A stretch of 32,897 nt of DNA from the NCBI GenBank assembly GCA_903831305.1, contig CAIKXE010000009.1:1-32897 (forward strand), given 5' to 3'. The notes under the pieces were generated by a model. It did no database searches. It was not told the DNA's origin and was given only the letters and a program-made list of their open reading frames with translations. Made by a program: the position numbers and the translations under genes. Positions within the stretch are counted from its first letter, which is position 1. Every line of letters begins with the position of its first letter. This stretch comes from an uncultured bacterium (GTDB lineage: Bacteria > Patescibacteriota > Minisyncoccia > Phycocordibacterales > GWA1-40-21). Shown here in pieces: positions 20,207 through 20,317 of the stretch.

Positions 20207-20317
20207 AAAAAACAAGAGTATTTAATTTTTGGACACGCATAATTTTCTGCTGAAAATTTGCTCAAGACTCCCGCCGTCGCGGTCCGTAGCTCCAAAAATC
20301 AAACACTCTTGTTTTTT
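20207..20317 (-). ncRNA. Structured inverted-repeat element (candidate RNA element / large terminator)
   Basis: 27-nt arms AAAAAACAAGAGTATTTAATTTTTGGA (20207-20233) and TCCAAAAATCAAACACTCTTGTTTTTT (20291-20317). Inner hairpins AATTTTC-TGCT-GAAAATT (20241-20258) and CCGC-CGTC-GCGG (20271-20282). Minus-strand RNA pairs completely with two G.U; plus-strand RNA would have two A.C mismatches. Confidence 0.6.

Follow-up and report, generated by a model that had tools for sequence, protein, structure and literature searches.

A long palindrome lies just beyond the stop of a 398-aa gene in the 32,897-nucleotide stretch of Patescibacteria DNA analyzed here (the window), raising the question of whether it is a local structure acting on its neighbor or a copy of something more widespread. 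An earlier note had proposed that pairing of its minus-strand RNA is functional and that it could be an elaborate terminator or attenuator, or a MITE-like dispersed repeat. The inverted repeat is as described there: arms at 20207-20233 and 20291-20317, 27 nt each and 93% complementary, enclose 57 nt, and both interior hairpins were confirmed. The minus-strand RNA folds at -51.3 kcal/mol, shuffled sequences averaging -28.0 (z -6.4; 0 of 200 shuffles did as well), and the plus-strand RNA at -36.8 kcal/mol (z -5.9). Thus, the fold beats shuffled sequence on both strands and is best on the minus strand. As noted, both arm differences read as G.U in minus-strand RNA, whereas plus-strand RNA has A.C at these positions.

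To describe the palindrome together with its relatives, we refer to R1, an Infernal covariance model built from 57 type I copies, the main form of the element. The features, all read on the minus strand, are:

20207..20317, minus strand: whole palindromic element, the minus-strand fold being the conserved one (inverted repeat, fold energy, stem asymmetry, R1 match)
20207..20221, minus strand: outer arm of the long stem P1, 3′ side; sequence private to this copy by comparison with the other copies in the genome
20222..20233, minus strand: inner P1 arm, TTAATTTTTGGA on the plus strand, common to other copies of the same genome
20237..20261, minus strand: hairpin hp1, GCAAATTTTC-AGCA-GAAAATT[A]TGC, with a bulged A (fold, pattern search, covariation)
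20267..20287, minus strand: hairpin hp2, AC-[GGA]-CCGC-GACG-GCGG-[GA]-GT (fold, alignment, covariation)
20291..20302, minus strand: inner P1 arm, 5′ side (inverted repeat, copy comparison)
20303..20317, minus strand: outer P1 arm, 5′ side; sequence private to this copy
20221..20303, minus strand: R1 match, 83.1 bits, E 2.9e-26, this copy being itself among the 57 training sequences

The palindrome is one copy of a dispersed repeat family and is not private to its locus. Searching its own genome (G000) revealed other places with the same interior: a 26-nt hp1 pattern with at most three mismatches occurred eight times, compared to none for the reversed control, and R1 gave 16 matches at E<1e-3 (757 kb; 757,243 of 760,696 bases searched). 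Exact matches were present in 98 stretches of GTDB genomes, and the listed records that carried a lineage name were all Patescibacteria/Parcubacteria. R1 found matches in 42 of 60 relatives, with a maximum of 53 per genome, and in 43 of 380 genomes sampled across the phylum, other classes included; the element was absent from 18 of the 60 relatives and from most of the phylum sample. Family members are roughly 80-130 bases long and number in the hundreds. The suggestion of a MITE-like dispersed repeat was therefore correct insofar as the interior recurs in the same genome and in relatives. The idea that the inverted repeat arose by chance, or is a structure isolated at this locus, is refuted by the fold z of -6.4 and by the hundreds of copies, and has virtually no chance of being right. 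Rfam gave no match to the element at either threshold, with none above the gathering score, and the open-access literature yielded no description of such repeats in Patescibacteria. We thus found no earlier description of the family in these sources; other literature could hold one. Viral contigs contained 0 exact matches to the hp1 pattern, giving no evidence of phage carriage.

The core is a conserved three-way junction. On the minus strand the order is P1 5′ arm, hp2, hp1 and P1 3′ arm, with the long P1 closing the junction. The hp1 RNA, GCAAAUUUUC-AGCA-GAAAAUU[A]UGC, has an AGCA-type loop and a bulged A, while hp2 contains a 3x2 internal loop (GNA/GA) and a GACG-type loop. In alignment A1, 89.5% of cells pair and both sides have changed in 21 of 27 pairs. 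Double-change cells numbered 313 versus 111 in shuffled controls, and the covariation score was 0.479 versus 0.160 (slid controls at most 0.143); these cells are phylogenetically non-independent. Among 66 matches from eight further genomes, aligned by fitting to R1 and hence biased toward structure, 27 of 27 pairs covaried, including those of hp1 (571 versus 159; 0.816 versus 0.206). Thus, covariation occurs in every helix, and the fold is preserved across the family though most of the sequence is not.

The stems also reveal which strand folds. In 93 type I stems (median 24 Watson-Crick pairs), G.U pairs numbered 86 on the minus strand versus 28 on the plus strand (p 5e-8) and G.A pairs 108 versus 7 (p 2e-24; 45 versus 3 when counted by copies), p-values that are optimistic because part of the asymmetry is inherited between related copies. 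The G.U ratio was 23:2 where the adjacent gene runs in the same direction as the minus strand (++ loci) and 29:8 where it runs opposite (-- loci). At convergent and divergent loci the G.U asymmetry was absent (10:9), with G.A at 29:0. A second set of copies, for which a symmetric score was used to extend beyond the model, was a partial replicate (G.U 12 versus A.C 3; G.A 9 versus C.T 1). On inspection, direct repeats CGAGCGAG outside several stems are compatible with tandem G.A pairing in the minus strand. Since one-sided mismatches occur in both gene orientations, the minus-strand fold matters independently of the neighboring transcription unit; pairing prefers one strand regardless of the direction of the neighboring gene. 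The asymmetry and the covariation together support conservation of the minus-strand fold, in line with the earlier note. As far as sequence can tell, the folded minus-strand molecule could be RNA or single-stranded DNA, the two being indistinguishable.

The stem itself has two parts. Where copies in G000 have near-identical cores, they have the inner stem TTTGATTTTnGGAG/CTCCAAAAnTnAAA in common, and their outer arms are unrelated yet complementary. Beyond the model, outer arms scored a mean of 6.9 with their own partner versus 0.6 with a swapped partner, and scores of at least 8 were reached by 26 of 65 own pairs versus 0 of 200 swapped pairs. Thus, the inner stem is common within one genome, while the outer stem is private to each copy but complementary. 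A conserved-end MITE model does not explain private complementary outer arms, so a separate explanation is needed. The arms could arise from fold-back copying during insertion, from quasi-palindrome correction at a later time, from selected compensatory changes or from insertion into hairpins already present.

We determined where the copies lie, taking gene contexts from open reading frames. Intergenic copies were mostly directly behind a stop codon and in both orientations (27 ++, 31 --, 18 convergent and 13 divergent); the second set likewise had both orientations relative to the adjacent gene. Other copies were inside genes confirmed by Pfam. Those in frame in the sense direction were in dnaE, tsaD, an integrase-fold (xerC/D-like) gene, a prmC-like methyltransferase, fmt, uvrD and rsmA, and antisense copies were in mnmA and a second tsaD. 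A copy at a fructose-bisphosphate aldolase gene (L039) is perhaps upstream of the true start. The uvrD genes of G549 and G097 encode ~35 extra residues that are absent in G557, G196 and G156 of the same family, and the fmt insert of G097 corresponds to an empty site in G549 of the same genus. Inserts in unrelated essential genes, the patchy distribution and empty sites within the same family together argue for mobility. The tsaD genes of G097 and G196 carry diverged elements in which the hp1 stems are substituted and the loop or bulge is retained; in G097 the hp1 stem sequence is replaced, with stem, AGCA loop and bulge kept.

Most copies had no clear target site duplication. The 3′ ends of rplK were a recurrent site, and type II copies at tRNA and rplK ends had the layout gene end T - (terminator) - rc(T) - core - T′, a gene-end duplication; at the type II tRNA site, one relative has a bare tRNA-Leu. 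The main (type I) copies gave no sign of target duplication as a general rule.

Several loci showed additional rearrangements. At L104:1-250, a type II element at an rplK 3′ end is itself duplicated in tandem (88 bp). At L026:1328-1660 and L211, type II elements are inserted within arrays of 5S rRNA fragments. In the tsaD of L057, the same variable protein loop contains a further palindrome-like insert, with the peptide RGRNFSAEKFTQSSGRR. At L059:1280-1720, tsaD is split at the element and the stretch between two element-like inserts is missing, possibly through recombination between copies or as an assembly artifact.

These positions also bear on the roles first proposed for the window copy. 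Across the family there was no T enrichment after the 3′ arm, no terminator was predicted at the window copy, and the hallmark of an intrinsic terminator, a short GC stem with a T run after it, was not found. Together with copies in both orientations to the adjacent gene and inside coding genes, this does not support a terminator or attenuator as the family's role. The window copy, alone in having arms that end in A6/U6, may have some local terminator activity. A 19-codon ORF (20321-20262, MKKTRVFDFWSYGPRRRES*) does begin just past the stop of the 398-aa gene. Since it runs through the copy-specific arm, a leader peptide is not a family feature, and that role did not hold up.

The closest parallels are the Rickettsia palindromic elements (RPEs), which are ~100-150 bp, lie in frame in unrelated and often essential genes, encode a short peptide and form many families with no known transposase (PMC10969869, PMC3733652); dnaE of R. 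conorii likewise bears a REP/RPE (PMC10969869, PMC3733652). In-frame insertion in coding genes is found here too (dnaE, tsaD, uvrD, rsmA, fmt, integrase-like and others). However, RPE-4 and RPE-6 have an unpaired CGTC end tag, while here the outer ends are copy-specific and CGTC/GACG occurs only as the variable hp2 loop. Compared with RPEs as they are described, the present family is in another phylum, is built on a conserved three-way junction, pairs asymmetrically between the strands and has outer arms that are complementary but specific to each copy. It works like RPEs and intragenic REPs but lacks the REP tag and a link to Y1, and we file it provisionally as a separate family of that kind, set apart from RPEs by description. 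MITEs (ERIC, Correia, QMITE and others) are likewise non-autonomous dispersed inverted-repeat DNA, but have conserved terminal inverted repeats and target duplications; here the apex is conserved and the ends are copy-specific, and we found no conserved terminal inverted repeats, as copies with near-identical cores have different outer arms. TIGR-Tas systems, also in CPR bacteria, consist of stem-loops arrayed in tandem close to tas genes, with box C/D and dual spacers (PMC12045711). They resemble the family in that the palindromic stems vary while the apical part that they surround is conserved; judged on repeat layout, they differ in that our copies are dispersed over many contigs and form a three-way junction.

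A model that we give a probability of about 0.68 is that the family consists of small, non-autonomous, dispersed palindromic mobile elements of Patescibacteria whose minus-strand fold is selected. Copies would multiply via trans-acting machinery whose substrate is the folded minus strand, either single-stranded DNA or RNA. The fold would be kept mainly because copies that fold are those that move. Local sequence at each new site may form or lengthen the outer stem, by fold-back copying or later quasi-palindrome correction, and copies would be tolerated where RNA or protein structure absorbs a hairpin or flexible loop. Mobilization through the folded minus strand is well supported, better than formation of the outer stem from local sequence. 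Against the model, no transposase could be linked to the element, and the genomes compared, all draft or single representatives, showed neither a transposition event nor a near-identical empty/filled pair. A bolder version, which we consider rather unlikely, is a novel type of mobile hairpin: what travels, as folded single-stranded DNA or RNA, would be just the apical core with the inner stem, the long stem being rebuilt at each landing site by inverted copying of adjacent host sequence.

Strong covariation, the position of copies behind stop codons and the tsaD fold that outlives replacement of its hp1 sequence are also what a structured RNA used by the host would give, acting in place as a 3′UTR element, protein-binding site, terminator or attenuator and copied to many loci. 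Retention of the tsaD fold after large divergence could reflect selection in place instead of selection at mobilization. However, the asymmetry follows the element strand even where the adjacent gene is read oppositely (the 29:8 at -- loci), the element is missing from 18 of the 60 relatives and from most genomes sampled over the phylum, T-run enrichment is absent, and copies lie in both orientations within coding genes, making this explanation quite doubtful. We regard as improbable that the element inserts into the loop of pre-existing target hairpins such as terminators, with the outer arms being old target sequence. The empty fmt site of G549 is a quasi-palindrome in the top 3% of that gene's windows, and plain terminators in the window's genome have long stems. 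Nonetheless, nine other empty sites (fmt of three further genomes, uvrD and rsmA) had no unusual hairpin, leaving one positive in ten; the empty intergenic site of L114 is short with no evident hairpin, and the outer-arm asymmetry goes with the element and not the gene.

Mobilization by a RAYT (Y1) transposase would fit a small dispersed palindrome with a one-strand fold and intragenic copies, since known REPs are small dispersed palindromes mostly behind genes, with some inside replication and repair genes (PMC3733652). But a REP spans 20-40 bp and carries a tetranucleotide tag, while this element is 80-130 bp and untagged: no GTAG or CGTC lies beside a short stem in A1 or outside the stem. 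The sole Y1/RAYT-like gene of the window's genome has its own, different REP. Across genomes, Y1 presence and the element were uncorrelated (29/13/10/8, p 0.38), and G028 has 34 copies and no Y1 match. With the tag absent and Y1 neither flanking nor co-occurring, we rejected REP/RAYT identity, and this origin is highly improbable.

The same genome contains other repeats. Further core families in G000 share the long-stem design, and one (C) is recognized by R1. A second hairpin family, with core TGTCTGGCCGAAGTTCTGACGAGGAGATCCGAGGAC, has long stems with private outer arms and shares the inner arm GTTTGATTTT with the window's family. A third has a 28-nt conserved apex (GATTAG..7 nt..GTTAAGCGAA type) atop long, often terminator-like stems. 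At L137 (G000:C6:2418-2687), the single Y1/RAYT-like gene is flanked by its REP, CCGTCAACGTCGTATGTTGACGG, unrelated to the window's core.

Second family, core TGTCTGGCCGAAGTTCTGACGAGGAGATCCGAGGAC: G000 C4:183971-184062 (L254), C4:50168-50261 (L247), C4:35738-35825 (L246), C7:16617-16709 (L231) and C8:62439-62520 (L264)
Third family, GATTAG-type apex: G000 C4:154013, C2:19146, C8:49575, C4:88695, C5:23453, C11:70229 and others

If long stems are rebuilt at each landing site, same-design families with other apical cores in this genome would be products of the same machinery. Patescibacteria genomes are among the smallest in bacteria, but a single one can contain up to ~50 of these elements, including copies within dnaE, uvrD or tsaD. 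A covariance model such as R1 makes the element annotatable, and its copy-specific stems offer a route to studying how perfect palindromes originate and persist in bacterial DNA. If mobile, the family would be a widespread class of selfish or domesticated repeats, with protein-coding consequences, in a huge and mostly uncultured group.
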